Positions 15,212 to 20,563 of a stretch of 64,000 bases of DNA are shown piece by piece. Every line of letters begins with the position of its first letter. Position 1 is the stretch's first letter. This DNA comes from an uncultured Acidobacteriia bacterium (GTDB lineage Bacteria > Acidobacteriota > Terriglobia > Bryobacterales > Bryobacteraceae): positions 186,001 through 250,000 of the forward strand of contig CAIVPR010000126.1 of assembly GCA_903907865.1 (NCBI GenBank), in the 5' to 3' direction. The notes beneath the pieces were generated by a model that was not told where the DNA came from, did no database searches, and was given only the letters and a program-made list of their open reading frames with translations. Position numbers and translations under genes: made by a program.

Positions 15212-15330
15212 AACAAAAGGGAAGGATCTTGTTGTATTCTGAGAGGTATACTGCGCTCGAGTTCCCTCCTGCCGGGTGGATACCCCGCAGCGTACTAGGA
15301 CGCTGAGCCCACGGCGGCAAATATTTTCTG

Positions 15331-15358
15331 TTGCGGTGAGGGTCAGGTGTTGTATAGT
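15331..15358 (+). promoter_or_regulatory. Candidate sigma-70 promoter of the PEP-CTERM gene
   Basis: TTGCGG (15331-15336) and TATAGT (15353-15358) are separated by 16 bases, and the start codon follows 43 bases later with a good Shine-Dalgarno. The -10 matches 5 of 6 consensus bases, the -35 only 3. Confidence 0.5.
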
Positions 15359-15401
15359 GGGTGTAGATCGGAACGAAGCGTCCGACTCGGAGGATTTAAC
15401 T

Positions 15402-16403
15402 TTGAAGCGAATTCTAACAATCTCATGGGTGGGTCTTGTTGCGGTGGCGGCAGCCAGCGCGGCGTCGTTCAACATCAATCTGGCGCAGGGCCTGTCAGCA
15501 GCTAACGTCACCGGCGGATCCAACACGATCAGCGGGACTTGCGCAGGTGGCACGCAGGCTGCGGCTGGCTACGGTGGTTGTATCCAAGGCACGCAGGCTG
15601 CGGGAACCGGCACCGGTAACGTGGCATGGAACAGCGTCAACACCTACTCGAACAACATCTTCAACTCGGCCAGCAGTGCTACGGCTGGCAATGGCAATAC
15701 TGGCAGCTTCTCGCCAGCTTCCTCGTACAACGTGACTGATCCCTATGCCGGGACGATCTCGCTGGCGTTGGGAAGCACGAGCACCGTGTGGAACGGTACG
15801 GGCGGTCCGTCAGGTGCTACGGCCACTCTCACCATTCCGATCGGCGTGTATGGTGTCACCGATGTTTGGACCATGCTCCAAGATGAGTTCGGCGTGAACG
15901 GCGTCAGCAACACGACCGTGATTTTCAACTTCGGCTCTTCCTCAAATCAGACTTCTGGATTGACACAGGTCTCCTACAGCCTGACCAACGGGAATCAGAT
16001 CCGCTCTTCCACCGTCTGCACGGGAACGAATACCGGCGGTGCCGCTCCGGCGTCTTGCACAGGATTCGCGGGAACGACGAGTTCGTCGAACACCACTCAG
16101 GTGTATTCGCAAGCATATGCTGGTGACGGTCGGACTGGTCCGTACCTGAACACGCAGGGGAACATCTACCTTGATGCGCAAGTCTTCAACTTGGCAACCT
16201 CCTACTCAGCCGCCACGCCGTGGTTGGTGAGCATCCAGATTCAAAACATCGGCGGCGTCTACAACGGTACCGGCAGCACGTTCACGAGCCGCACGGCCCT
16301 CTCCGCAATCACGGTGGACACGGCTCCCGAGCCCTCGTCTGTCGCGCTTTTCGGAGCTGGCTTGGGTGCCTTGGCGTGGTTCCGTCGTCGGCGTCAGGCA
16401 TAG
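15402..16403 (+). CDS. PEP-CTERM sorting-domain protein
   Basis: A 333-residue secreted protein: signal peptide (KRILTISWVGLVAVAAASA), a Gly/Ser/Thr/Asn-rich beta-type body poor in charged residues, and a C-terminal PEP motif (APEPSSVALFGAGLG), hydrophobic helix and RRRR tail. This is the exosortase/PEP-CTERM signal, which directs cleavage and surface display in EPS-forming bacteria; no exosortase gene is in the window. The start is TTG at 15402, chosen because GGAGG (15389-15393) stands eight bases upstream and the signal peptide follows. The body function is unknown. Confidence 0.88.
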   Translation: MKRILTISWVGLVAVAAASAASFNINLAQGLSAANVTGGSNTISGTCAGGTQAAAGYGGCIQGTQAAGTGTGNVAWNSVNTYSNNIFNSASSATAGNGNTGSFSPASSYNVTDPYAGTISLALGSTSTVWNGTGGPSGATATLTIPIGVYGVTDVWTMLQDEFGVNGVSNTTVIFNFGSSSNQTSGLTQVSYSLTNGNQIRSSTVCTGTNTGGAAPASCTGFAGTTSSSNTTQVYSQAYAGDGRTGPYLNTQGNIYLDAQVFNLATSYSAATPWLVSIQIQNIGGVYNGTGSTFTSRTALSAITVDTAPEPSSVALFGAGLGALAWFRRRRQA

Positions 16404-16426: not shown

Positions 16427-16462
16427 AAAGAGGGCGGCTCCGTCCAAGGAGCCGCCCTCTTT
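16427..16462. terminator. Strong bidirectional intrinsic terminator
   Basis: A perfect 15-bp stem (16427-16441 with 16448-16462) and a 6-base loop, A-rich on one side and T-rich on the other. It lies between the convergent PEP-CTERM and B2-like genes and can stop transcription from both. Confidence 0.88.
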
Positions 16463-16467
16463 CCGTT

Positions 16468-16962
16468 TTACGGCCTGCGCCAAGGCATCGGGAGATCGTA
16501 GGACCCGGAGGCCTCCAGCACCGAGTAGGTGGCCACTTCCGCAAGCGACTCGTTCAGAGGTATCCCCTCGTATTCCAGCCAAGCGTGACCTTCCAACTTT
16601 CCGTCCCGCCGTCGAAACCCTACCCGCACGATCCCGTCCAAGCCTCGACGCCGCATCAAAGCCCACAGTGAGAGGGAGCGGACAAGGCAATTGACGCGCC
16701 CGGCTGTGTAGCCGTGGGTTGTGTATCGGTAAAAGATAGCTTGGGTCTTGTAAACGATCTGGAGCAAAACCCGCTGTTCATCGCTCGATAGAGCCGCGCT
16801 GCGCGTCGGCGCGCTCCACCGGCGCAGAAATGCTTGAGTCTTTGGGACCCCCCAGATTCGGAAGGCCGCCGACACGATGGGCACCGCAGCGAAGGTCTTC
16901 ACCAACAGGCCGCGTCCGACCGGCCCCAACCCCCAAAAAGTCCGCAGTTTTCTAACCAGCAC
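16468..16962 (-). CDS. Lasso peptide biosynthesis B2-like protein (transglutaminase-fold cysteine protease)
   Basis: A 164-residue member of the B2/transglutaminase-like family that removes leader peptides in lasso peptide and related RiPP pathways. Cys92 stands in the conserved NCLVRSLSL block, His126 in EGHAWLEYEG, and the acidic third residue follows in PLNE, so the triad looks intact. The N-terminal helix region (RKLRTFWGLGPVGRGLL) is typical. GTG start at 16962. No cyclase (asparagine-synthetase-like), RRE/B1 or precursor gene was found nearby. It is divergent, by 23 bases, from an operon with sulfotransferase-like and nucleotidyltransferase genes, enzyme types also reported as tailoring partners in RiPP clusters. 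Confidence 0.82.
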   Translation of the reverse strand: MLVRKLRTFWGLGPVGRGLLVKTFAAVPIVSAAFRIWGVPKTQAFLRRWSAPTRSAALSSDEQRVLLQIVYKTQAIFYRYTTHGYTAGRVNCLVRSLSLWALMRRRGLDGIVRVGFRRRDGKLEGHAWLEYEGIPLNESLAEVATYSVLEASGSYDLPMPWRRP

Positions 16963-16985
16963 TGTGATGATAAACTCAGTGTGGC

Positions 16986-17393
16986 ATGGTCATGATCGCC
17001 CTCGCCGTCTGCGTCGGCTGCATTATGCTCTCCTCGTTGCGCAAGGATGCTTGGCCGCTCACTAGGTATCCAATGTTCACAAGGCGTATAGAGGCCAAGG
17101 ACATGGTGGCGATTCGATTTCGGCTCCTGCGTGCCGACGGGTCGGCGGACTGGTGGCGGCCAAGGTCGCATCGGTATGAGGATTGCATTGGAGAGCGCAT
17201 CCGGGCCTTGGGCACCGCCGAGGTAATGTGGGGTGTCGCCGAAATGTTGCGCTTGCTGGCACTCGACGAAGCCGACACCAGCCGTTACCAAGCTGTTGAG
17301 GTGGTAGAACGTTCATTTGCCAATGGGCGCGTCGAGGACCGGCAGGTGGCGGTGGTTCCGGTTCCCCATAGACGGTTACCGATAGATGAGTAG
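16986..17393 (+). CDS. Small membrane-anchored protein upstream of an HTTM-like gene
   Basis: A 135-residue protein with one N-terminal membrane segment (MIALAVCVGCIML) followed by DAWPLTRYPMF, a motif that I associate with small partner proteins encoded next to HTTM proteins, and then a soluble alpha/beta region. The molecular function is not known to me. It is the first gene of a four-gene plus-strand operon; its stop overlaps the next start by eight bases. Two ATGs (16986, 16992) are possible starts. It is divergent from the B2-like gene. Confidence 0.7.
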   Translation: MVMIALAVCVGCIMLSSLRKDAWPLTRYPMFTRRIEAKDMVAIRFRLLRADGSADWWRPRSHRYEDCIGERIRALGTAEVMWGVAEMLRLLALDEADTSRYQAVEVVERSFANGRVEDRQVAVVPVPHRRLPIDE

Positions 17394-18144
17394 ACCGTTG
17401 GCAACTCAAGTCTTCGCATCCTTGTACTGCGGCACAATTGCGCTGCAGACGGCGGTCCGCTTTCGCGATCACGCTTGGTTCCAACGCAGTGATCCCGCTC
17501 GGCTCTACGGCCCTCCACCGCGACTGTTCGGCCTTGTTCGGCTACCCACCCCAAGCAACCAGGTTTTTCAGTTGGCAGGAGCGGCTTTCATCGTCGCGCT
17601 CCTCGGGGCAGCGCTCGGAATTGCGGCGAAGTTGTCGCTGGCAGCGGCGCTGCTGGCGTACTTCGTCCATTTTCCTCCCATCCATGGACTTGGCTACATA
17701 GCGCGTACGAGCAACCTGATCCCGGTCGTTCTCGCCATTCTTTTGGTCGCCCCCCCTGAACAGATCATGGCCGTGCAACTGGCGGTAGCAGCAGTCTATT
17801 TTTCAGCAGGAGTGGCGAAACTGCGCGCCTCCGGCTTGCGTTGGGCCGACGGGGTCGCCCTACAGGGTTACATGGTTCAAGCCTACATGTGGCATGAAAA
17901 GCCCGCCGCCCTCTGGATATCACGCCGCAGATGGCTGTGCGCCGGACTCAGCGCGGTCGTCCTGATGTGGGAAGTCACATTCCCGGCTGCCATATTTTTC
18001 CCGCATGTCGTTTGGATCTGGGTATTTGTGGGCGTCCTGTTCCATATCAGCACGTCCGTACTGATGCGGATCCACTACTGGATCTACTTCGGACCGGCGT
18101 ATTTCGCCTTCATAGCCGAATGGCTCGCAGGGAGAATCCAGTGA
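17386..18144 (+). CDS. HTTM-like multi-helix membrane protein
   Basis: A 252-residue integral membrane protein with about six to seven hydrophobic helices. The pattern AVYFSAGVAKLRASGLRWADG and the later WEVTFPA and FHISTSVLMR resemble the HTTM domain (horizontally transferred transmembrane domain, related to vitamin K-dependent gamma-carboxylase and DoxX/MauE-type proteins). No proven activity can be assigned. It overlaps the preceding gene by eight bases and the next by four (GTGA), so it is translated as part of a coupled operon. Confidence 0.72.
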   Translation: MSRPLATQVFASLYCGTIALQTAVRFRDHAWFQRSDPARLYGPPPRLFGLVRLPTPSNQVFQLAGAAFIVALLGAALGIAAKLSLAAALLAYFVHFPPIHGLGYIARTSNLIPVVLAILLVAPPEQIMAVQLAVAAVYFSAGVAKLRASGLRWADGVALQGYMVQAYMWHEKPAALWISRRRWLCAGLSAVVLMWEVTFPAAIFFPHVVWIWVFVGVLFHISTSVLMRIHYWIYFGPAYFAFIAEWLAGRIQ

Positions 18145-19073
18145 CAACTTGCGCCATGACGACAACGAGTCCCGGCATGGTTCCTGTGGGGCTCGAGCAC
18201 GCCACCGACGGCGAGCTACGCCTCCGCTGGCAGGATCTGGGGCGGTTCCACTGCTACGACGGCTTCTTCGACAGCGGGCTCGATCGCATGCGCGCCATGC
18301 TCGGTGGCGATCCTCCCGGCATTACCAGCACACTCGCGGCCTTGGACTCCCTGCCCCTAGACGATTGCATCGCCCCGACCGGCTTGATCTTCCATACCGG
18401 CCGGTGCGGCTCGACCCTCCTCGCCAAGGTGCTTGCCCGGTCCCGACGCAACATCGTGGTTGGCGAGGCAAGCGTCCACAACGCTTTCTGGAATCTCCTC
18501 CCCGGTCGTGGCGATAGGGAAATCGAACAGTTCCGCCGACTCGTCCTCGCCATGGGCAGACGCAGGCTGGAGACGTATTCCGGCCACATCGTCAAGTTCA
18601 CGTCCTACAACGTCCTGCGGCATTCCGCGATCCGGTCGTCATTTCCAGACACGCCAACGATCTTCCTTTTCCGCGAGCCCCAAGCGACGCTCGATTCCAT
18701 CCATGCCAGTCCGCCGGGCTTCATCCAGAGCGGCGGTATTGCTGAGTTCCGCTTTCCCTCGCCCGAACAGATGCTGGAGGACTACATGGAGGCAGCGCTT
18801 GCGATCCCCGACACGGGCATGCGGGTACTCGACTATTCGCACCTGAAGCCGCAATTCCTCCCCGCCATCCTGGACTGGTTCCGGCAGAAACCCGACCCCG
18901 CCGAACTCCGGCAGATGCTCTCGGAATTCGACTGGGATGCCAAGGGCGGCATCGGTGCCCGATTTGTAGGAAAACAGCGTGCGCAACGCGGCGTGGTCTC
19001 ACCCCGACACCTGGAACTCTACACCGCCCTGCGCGACCGGGCGAAGCGCGACTGGCCGGAACTCCCGCAATGA
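18141..19073 (+). CDS. Sulfotransferase-like P-loop protein
   Basis: A 310-residue protein with the PAPS-type phosphate-binding loop HTGRCGSTLLAKVLA (near residues 82-96) and FLFREPQATLDS, which corresponds to the second PAPS site region of sulfotransferases. It would transfer sulfate from PAPS to an acceptor, here unknown. I place the start at GTG 18141 because GGGAGA stands six bases upstream and the codon overlaps the previous stop; ATG 18156 is the alternative. Twenty-eight bases later follows a nucleotidyltransferase gene. Confidence 0.75.
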   Translation: MTTCAMTTTSPGMVPVGLEHATDGELRLRWQDLGRFHCYDGFFDSGLDRMRAMLGGDPPGITSTLAALDSLPLDDCIAPTGLIFHTGRCGSTLLAKVLARSRRNIVVGEASVHNAFWNLLPGRGDREIEQFRRLVLAMGRRRLETYSGHIVKFTSYNVLRHSAIRSSFPDTPTIFLFREPQATLDSIHASPPGFIQSGGIAEFRFPSPEQMLEDYMEAALAIPDTGMRVLDYSHLKPQFLPAILDWFRQKPDPAELRQMLSEFDWDAKGGIGARFVGKQRAQRGVVSPRHLELYTALRDRAKRDWPELPQ

Positions 19074-19101
19074 GCCGCTGCTAACCTGGGAGAAAGCGCC
19101 C

Positions 19102-20157
19102 ATGCCACCCTTCGAATCCGCCAGAGTCCTGGCCGCCCTCTTGTCGGACCCGGCCAATCGTTTGCCCGAAGATGCGGATGAAAGGCGCCGCTTGATGGAA
19201 TCGGCCGCGCGCCAAGGCTTGGGCCCATGGCTTGCGGGAAGCCTGCGACCGCTGCTTACAGGCTCCGACCGGGCATGGTGCGATGAAAAGCTAACGCGGT
19301 CATGGCGCCAATACAGCAGAATGCTCGGGGCCGCCACGGAAATACTGGGCATCTTGGGGTCGGTGGGGATCCTGACGCTCGCACTGAAGGGCCCCGTGTT
19401 GGCATTGCGACGCTACGCGCCTCCGTTCCTCAGAAGGCCGTCGGCCGATCTGGACATCGGAGTCGCGGATAGGGACCTGGAAGCGGCGTGCAAGGCGCTG
19501 GAGGGCGCGGGGTACGTACTGCGCAGCACCCTCCAGGCGAGCCGGGCAATCCGTCACCACGCAGTCTTGACGCACGAAACACTGCCGGAGATCGAGCTCC
19601 ACTACAGGCTCACACACGGTACGCTGGGTACCCCGATTGCAGAATTACTCAAGGACTGCATTCCGTTCGACCTGCCCGGCGGGGCCACGACAATGGTCCT
19701 GGGTCCGGCCGAGGAGCTTCTGCACTTGTGCCTCCATTCCGTGGACAGCCGGTTTGCACCTTGGTTCCATTTGTTCGAGTTTCGACGACTCTGGGAGGCT
19801 GCGGACCCGGTAGTTCGGGAACAATGCCTGGCACGCGCTGTCGAGCGGCACATGGTCGGCGCGCTTCTGATGATGGATGTCGCGTTGCGCGCGATCTGGC
19901 AGGAGGGCTTGATTCCGGACACCGCGGCGCTTCCTCGCACATGGCTGGACTTCCGAATCAACCAGGATCTCCTGTCGGAATTCGAGGCGTGGGGAGTGGA
20001 GAGTGCGGCCCTCGGCGGCGTTGGCATCGGCTTGAAGAACCGCATCCACGGGCGCTGGCTGGATGTCCAGCTGACAGACCGACCGGCGGATGCATGGAAG
20101 CAAGTTGCAGCGCTGTTTCACCTCTGGCGCGAACAAAGAAATCTTTCTAGCCGTTGA
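19102..20157 (+). CDS. Nucleotidyltransferase family protein (NTP_transf_5 type)
   Basis: A 351-residue protein of the uncharacterised nucleotidyltransferase family often found in RiPP and polysaccharide clusters. Visible hallmarks are LALKGPVLA, then RRPSADLDIGV (the two metal-binding aspartates) and a histidine-rich IELHYRLTHG strand. It probably moves a nucleotidyl group onto a small molecule or peptide. ATG at 19102 has GGGAGA about nine bases upstream. It is the last gene of the operon and is followed by a hairpin. Confidence 0.78.
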   Translation: MPPFESARVLAALLSDPANRLPEDADERRRLMESAARQGLGPWLAGSLRPLLTGSDRAWCDEKLTRSWRQYSRMLGAATEILGILGSVGILTLALKGPVLALRRYAPPFLRRPSADLDIGVADRDLEAACKALEGAGYVLRSTLQASRAIRHHAVLTHETLPEIELHYRLTHGTLGTPIAELLKDCIPFDLPGGATTMVLGPAEELLHLCLHSVDSRFAPWFHLFEFRRLWEAADPVVREQCLARAVERHMVGALLMMDVALRAIWQEGLIPDTAALPRTWLDFRINQDLLSEFEAWGVESAALGGVGIGLKNRIHGRWLDVQLTDRPADAWKQVAALFHLWREQRNLSSR

Positions 20158-20237: not shown

Positions 20238-20563
20238 ATGCAGTCGCCGCGAGGGATCGCCGTGTATGTTTCGCCTGTATTGTGGCTGGCTTTGGCCTCG
20301 TGCCGCCCCCCGCAGCCGGTGCCGCGCAGCTTCGAGTACACCATCGAGGCGCAGAAGATGCGCGACGGCAAACCGGTGTCGGAGGCATATGCGGCCTCGG
20401 CGTAGGACACGTTCGAGGCGGGCTGGCGGTTCCGGTTGCGGATGAAGGCGGGTCAAGCGGGGTATTTTGCGCTGATCCGCAGACGGTGTACCGGGTCGCT
20501 GCCGGGGCCAAGGAGCCGCTGTTGGTGAAGCTCACATTAAAGTACGGTGCCAAGGCCCGCTGA
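20238..20563 (+). pseudogene. Broken lipoprotein gene (in-frame stop plus frameshift)
   Basis: From ATG 20238 the frame encodes a lipoprotein signal ending in LWLALASC (lipobox), then PQPVPRSFEYTIEAQKMRDG, and hits TAG at 20403-20405 after 55 codons. The same frame continues meaningfully after the stop (DTFEAGWRFRLRMKAGQAGYFALI-type strand), then the homology-like sequence switches frame near 20470 (DPQTVYRVAAGAKEPLL) and ends at 20563. The strand pattern resembles DUF4384-like proteins. A TAGAAT -10 (20222-20227) remains upstream. Two independent lesions make a sequencing error less likely, though it is not excluded. Confidence 0.68.

Follow-up and report, generated by a model that had tools for sequence, protein, structure and literature searches.

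Gene content of the locus

We analysed a 64-kb stretch of the genome of an uncultured Acidobacteriia bacterium (contig C126, positions 186001-250000, below called the window; the genome comprises 7.5 Mb in 186 contigs and is 98.3% complete). It contains a gene for a leader peptidase of the lasso-peptide B2 type, divergent from a tight four-gene operon and convergent with a gene for a secreted PEP-CTERM protein (Table 1). An earlier note, made from the sequence alone, had described the B2 gene and the operon. The coordinates, order and strands of these five genes are confirmed, as are the 23 bases separating B2 from the YPMF start codon (ATG at 16986). The PEP-CTERM gene, 64 bases from B2, was missed in that note. 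Between the two genes is a strong hairpin, a probable terminator that is not among the matches of a consensus terminator scan; a promoter scan gave no match. The true start of the PEP-CTERM gene is probably near 15400.

Table 1. Features of the locus in window coordinates, with family scores and model cut-offs
Feature	Position	Strand	Evidence
PEP-CTERM secreted protein, genus-limited family	15276..16403	+	PF07589 24.1 bits (cut-off 20.7); same-genus homologues in or beside lasso-type clusters
15-bp hairpin in the PEP-CTERM/B2 gap	16427..16462		-32.7 kcal/mol, z -6.8
B2-type leader peptidase	16468..16962	-	NF033537 60.6 bits (cut-off 33), PF13471 54.9 bits (cut-off 26); GTG start
YPMF small protein	16986..17393	+	single hydrophobic segment at the N terminus; motif resembling WPxxxYPM[FY]; soluble tail
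HTTM-like membrane protein	17386..18144	+	PF05090 27.5 bits (cut-off 27.7); 8-base overlap with YPMF
Sulfotransferase-like protein (Sulfotransfer_3 relatives)	18156..19073	+	PF13469 E=0.12 plus homologue scores
NTP_transf_5 nucleotidyltransferase	19102..20157	+	PF14907 83.3 bits (cut-off 31.2); DxD motif intact by eye

The families named in the earlier note are of unequal standing. B2 and NTP_transf_5 exceed their cut-offs, and the B2 protein has the intact Cys and His ascribed to it, as do its relatives (94/94 B2 sequences, the window's included). It is the single B2 match in the whole genome; a PDB sequence search with it returned nothing useful. The HTTM score is a near miss, and therefore the gene is called HTTM-like. 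The sulfotransferase, weak by itself, is tentatively assigned through three scanned homologues, of which those at L026 and L028 score 39 bits and that at L038 12 bits against PF13469 (cut-off 27). For YPMF, neither Pfam nor NCBIfam gives a family.

A YPM[FY] protein with an N-terminal hydrophobic stretch also precedes an HTTM-like gene in G014, a genome of the same family (L010), and on a Novosphingobium plasmid (L037). By the open reading frame (ORF) calls the two genes overlap in G014; on the plasmid one small ORF lies between them. Similarity across the three places is only 19-22%, so the case rests on the motif and the layout, and the HTTM-like partners in the two other places do not match PF05090. 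There is no B2 match in G014, and none in the plasmid stretch by annotation or model. A scan of fetched loci for the YPM motif found only the window's own copies and those of G014 and the plasmid; the third HTTM match (G003) has no YPM protein in its short contig. Judged by this comparison, YPMF and HTTM appear to form a module of their own that occurs apart from B2.

Relatives of the window sulfotransferase were observed by eye near tail-collar (microcystin-dependent-type) proteins in 7/11 phylum loci (L026, L027, L030-L034), only 3/11 being recovered by an overly strict regular expression. Some of these loci also contain APS kinase, ATP sulfurylase-like, GNAT or Asp/Asn hydroxylase-like genes. 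On an Azospirillum plasmid (L038, 5640-12873), PqqD, sulfotransferase-like, HprK-like and asparagine-synthase genes lie near two tail fibre genes, and this locus possibly bridges the two sulfotransferase settings.

Between the NTP_transf_5 gene and a cytochrome c gene, a small lipoprotein-like frame with an internal stop was seen by eye (20238-20560). It is possibly a decayed gene.

Lasso-type genes elsewhere and the PEP-CTERM family

Searched with grown models, the window and the adjoining 19.5 kb on its left gave no hit (E up to 0.1) for PqqD, the lasso cyclase, the HprK-like kinase or radical SAM. Candidate precursors were sought by a rule requiring the leader motif YxxPxL, Thr, Ile or Val at -2 and Asp or Glu at core position 7-9. 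None in the window passes this rule, which can miss frames opening upstream. These model and rule scans agree with the earlier note, in which no cyclase, RiPP recognition element (RRE; RiPP, ribosomally synthesised and post-translationally modified peptide) or precursor was visible within the window. At B2 loci the rule finds precursors in 29 of 92, some of them probably by chance; shuffled windows averaged 0.5.

That note had also described the locus as lacking a lasso cyclase, and for the genome this is not supported: it contains one putative lasso-type cyclase gene with a precursor and a kinase gene, and a PqqD gene with a second precursor. Six genes match PF00733 genome-wide, two of them weakly (29 and 32 bits). 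The best NCBIfam model for the one on C126 (about 41.6-43.4 kb of the contig) is the lasso cyclase NF033535, at 204.8 bits, below the strict cut-off of 525; for the other three (C140, C74, C88) the best models are AsnB or XrtA amidotransferase. The lasso model is likewise best for the same-genus cyclases of L218, L256 and L206 (239, 359 and 689 bits), only the last of which exceeds the cut-off. The C126 cyclase is on the same contig as B2, 160 kb away. Its start is overlapped by precursor B (about 41.5 kb), which was caught by the rule scan, and it is followed directly by an HprK-like kinase and a JmjC_2 protein. The latter (JmjC_2/cupin; L245, 11318-12466) is a candidate peptide hydroxylase.

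There are two PqqD genes in the genome. For the one on C146 the best NCBIfam models are lasso ones, at 39 bits, below the cut-off. It is followed after 34 bases by precursor A (about 5.6 kb), an ORF of 51 amino acids with a GGAGG site. Both precursors carry YxxPRLTxLGxI. Counted from Tyr at -17, the numbering given for Bradymonas BsfA in passages of PMC10368454, both have Val at -2, Ala as first core residue and a C-terminal Ser; the core Asp is residue 8 in A and residue 9 in B. The same passages report Ile or Val at -2 for Acidobacteriaceae, and sections of PMC8498205 name the C-terminal Ser as the residue phosphorylated by paeninodin-type kinases. Another locus of this genome, on C158 (L009, 7894-11544), has genes for a radical SAM/SPASM protein, a PqqD and a kinase-like protein; a second NTP_transf_5 gene is divergent from these, and the 20 kb read contain no B2.

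Two genes of the window locus point to same-genus lasso-type clusters. Among all fetched loci, the NTP_transf_5 protein has its reciprocal best match in L212 of genome G142 (39% identity over 299 amino acids; 193 bits, 67 for the next locus). The other is the PEP-CTERM gene. A single-sequence search found one gene of its family in each of 4/5 same-genus genomes; three homologues score 22.0-29.2 bits with PF07589. In G041, of the same genus, neither a PEP-CTERM family gene nor a B2 match was found. A model search of 150 family genomes returned the same four genes above 380 bits, with the next best at 45.5. The four high scores follow by construction, because the model was built from these four, whereas the gap to 45.5 does not. 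With E values up to 0.001, some match to the model is present in 99 of the 150 genomes, for the most part at the widespread C-terminal signal.

All four strong PEP-CTERM copies are in or beside lasso-type genes. In G142 (L212) the gene adjoins NTP_transf_5. Less than 200 bases separate the B2 and PEP-CTERM matches in G124 (L218). In G097 (L256, contig C84) the PEP-CTERM gene is between PqqD and a sulfotransferase gene, 2.6 kb from the cyclase. The annotated part around it (about 16 of 20 kb) has no B2, and the one B2 found in G097 is on another contig. On this gene arrangement we regard G097 as an apparent same-genus precedent for a B2 acting in trans. By a rough post hoc estimate over four related genomes, three such placements by chance would have a probability of about 1 in 10^5 to 10^6, if each of the three other genomes had as much as 75 kb of lasso-type territory. 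The predicted structure of the PEP-CTERM protein was unusable (mean predicted local distance difference test score 34.6). Among the literature matches listed, none gives a published tie between PEP-CTERM and lasso peptides; the two listed papers with a co-mention have PEP-CTERM in their reference lists only.

B2 neighbourhoods and alternative explanations

We surveyed 93 other B2 genes in 92 loci. Of these loci, 60 came from the phylum list, chosen largely on score, and the remaining 32 are all the places in other genomes that the family list contains. Neighbours were counted within 10 kb of B2, using models grown from seeds inside the fetched set. PqqD was found near 82 B2 genes, cyclase-type asparagine synthetase near 72, HprK-like kinase near 56, NTP_transf_5 near 40 and radical SAM near 7. 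Some loci are short contigs; for the 67 cases in which B2 is flanked by 5 kb or more in each direction the counts are PqqD 59, cyclase 51 and NTP_transf_5 35. The cyclase model also scores AsnB-type genes. The mark of AsnB is an N-terminal MCG; for none of the 72 did the sole candidate carry it, and in 65 of them a candidate is within 4 kb. In six loci (L143, L148, L157, L158, L201, L229) B2 is beside radical SAM and PqqD genes and precursor-like ORFs, with no lasso cyclase within 10 kb. By gene content these six represent a B2 plus radical SAM locus type.

A second case of the five-family set, whose co-occurrence the earlier note had proposed to look for, was not found in relatives by searches starting from B2 (93 genes), the sulfotransferase and HTTM. 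HTTM and YPMF are each near 0/93 B2 genes, by insensitive models grown from the window genes, and a sulfotransferase of the window type is near one, weakly. For the five genes as a conserved system this is the first of the two refuting outcomes named in the earlier note; the second, relatives whose B2 has lost its catalytic residues, was not observed. Counting the own genome in each, the sulfotransferase matched in 10/396 phylum and 8/150 family genomes and HTTM in 3/150 family genomes. A tblastn search of plasmids gave two records for the sulfotransferase, one for HTTM and none for YPMF. Contig scans for HTTM and sulfotransferase relatives, a weak approach using six short peptide patterns each, confirmed none.

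On balance, gene content and homology lead us to favour a dispersed lasso-type RiPP pathway, to which the locus would contribute the leader peptidase, tailoring enzymes and the PEP-CTERM protein. Several observations weigh against it. The cyclase scores show no separation: with the raw lasso model C126 has 204.8 bits and the AsnB/XrtA-type genes 221.1, 174.6 and 250.8, and with the cyclase profile grown here the values are 323 and 303-372. Only the best-matching model and the neighbouring genes set the C126 cyclase apart as a putative lasso enzyme. Precursor A, which the rule scan missed, comes from reading a tblastn lead by eye. The window sulfotransferase differs in type from the Sulfotransfer_1 enzymes of the same-genus clusters, and its relatives adjoin other genes. 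In the B2 tree the window sequence is on a long branch whose position is not secure; the nearest sequence is an orphan B2 at 90/81, not starred. Moreover, 7/93 other B2 genes have no PqqD, cyclase or radical SAM nearby; isolation of a B2 is thus infrequent without being unique, and an orphan B2 may have another role. Finally, since the assembly is in 186 contigs and 98.3% complete, a second B2 could be missing.

The orphan state of B2 and its long branch would also fit a chance neighbourhood, in which B2, a relic or a gene of other function, is beside an unrelated accessory operon. Third-position GC is compatible with this: the six locus genes have 0.67-0.78, mostly below the 0.77-0.87 of seven flanking genes, a pattern seen in accessory genes. 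However, NTP_transf_5 accompanies B2 in 40 of the 93 surveyed cases, the closest relative of the NTP_transf_5 protein and the PEP-CTERM family are both in or by same-genus lasso-type clusters, and the catalytic Cys and His of B2 are retained. We consider a chance neighbourhood rather unlikely.

It is improbable that the window B2 serves the C158 locus, despite the radical SAM/SPASM, PqqD, kinase and NTP_transf_5 genes there, the absence of B2 from the 20 kb read, and the existence of 6/93 other B2 genes that have radical SAM and PqqD but no cyclase beside them. Around C158 the precursor rule yields nothing (it can miss some), and the B2 tree does not group the window B2 with radical-SAM-linked B2s, its placement being unsure.

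Slightly more improbable still is the cyclase-free system suggested in the earlier note, in which the five genes would act jointly on an unrecognised peptide: the tight operon and the divergent B2 only 23 bases away speak for it, but the combination recurs in no relative examined, no window ORF passes the precursor rule, lasso parts are present elsewhere in the genome, and the YPMF-HTTM pair occurs elsewhere without B2. What survives of that idea is an intact B2 beside enzymes of peptide-tailoring types.

Proposed pathway and comparison with known systems

For the favoured dispersed lasso-type pathway, we propose the catalytic steps, the action of B2 in trans and the role of the PEP-CTERM protein from gene content, positions, conservation and precursor motifs. 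Precursors from C126 and C146 would be bound by the PqqD-type RRE of C146, and the window B2 would cut the leader in trans. The C126 lasso-type cyclase may then close an Ala1-Asp ring of 8 or 9 residues, and the HprK-like kinase beside it may phosphorylate the C-terminal Ser. The NTP_transf_5 enzyme could next extend the phospho-Ser with a sugar (hexose) or a nucleotide, as proposed for PsmN of pseudomycoidin, which we suppose to belong to PF14907. Sugar or nucleotide addition by PsmN is discussed in parts of PMC9266682 and PMC8498205. Either the peptide or the adjacent surface protein may be the substrate of the sulfotransferase. The PEP-CTERM protein would act as a secreted partner, possibly for display or as an acceptor, and the YPMF-HTTM pair would be a separate membrane module that joined the operon.

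The sharing of the PEP-CTERM family with lasso-type clusters hints that the peptide pathway and the surface protein work together. A bolder version, which we regard as speculative and doubtful, ties the RiPP pathway physically to exosortase-type sorting. A lasso-type peptide decorated with phosphate, sugar or nucleotide and perhaps sulfate would be displayed on, attached to or protecting the cell via one dedicated PEP-CTERM protein, or this protein would itself be the tailoring substrate; the pathway could be dispersed in the genome and draw on a shared B2. If true, the tie would give these peptides a testable cell-surface role. Searches requiring a clustered cyclase, RRE and B2 would overlook each of the fragments found here. 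If B2 does act in trans, lasso pathways are undercounted and one peptidase can serve several.

The locus departs from the classical clustered lasso layout, as no cyclase, RRE or rule-passing precursor is beside B2 in the 64-kb window. One close comparison is with the same-genus clusters L212, L218 and L256, all of which have a PEP-CTERM family gene, a sulfotransferase, an HprK-like kinase, PqqD and a cyclase. B2 is present in L212 and L218, and NTP_transf_5 in L212. L212 contains two PqqD genes, two HprK-like kinases, a Sulfotransfer_1 protein and a precursor-like ORF of 53 amino acids that fails the ring rule. Unlike these three clusters, the window has no cyclase, PqqD or kinase, its sulfotransferase is of another type, and the YPMF-HTTM pair is extra.

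Among characterised systems, an HTTM protein in a RiPP setting is described for linaridin clusters in a portion of PMC9927463 (crdG of corynaridin), the HTTM match here being borderline. B2, nucleotidyltransferase and sulfotransferase genes are known among Firmicutes lasso clusters, according to sections of PMC8498205. As in the pseudomycoidin (psm), paeninodin and Bradymonas bsf clusters, to judge from passages of PMC8498205, PMC9266682 and PMC10368454, the parts include B2, RRE, a cyclase (here a putative one) and HprK-like kinase, and the psm and bsf clusters also hold a nucleotidyltransferase, as here. Unlike in those clusters, the parts here are in three places, and a PEP-CTERM gene and a YPMF-HTTM pair are beside B2. 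The dispersed layout and the PEP-CTERM link are what is new in the locus.

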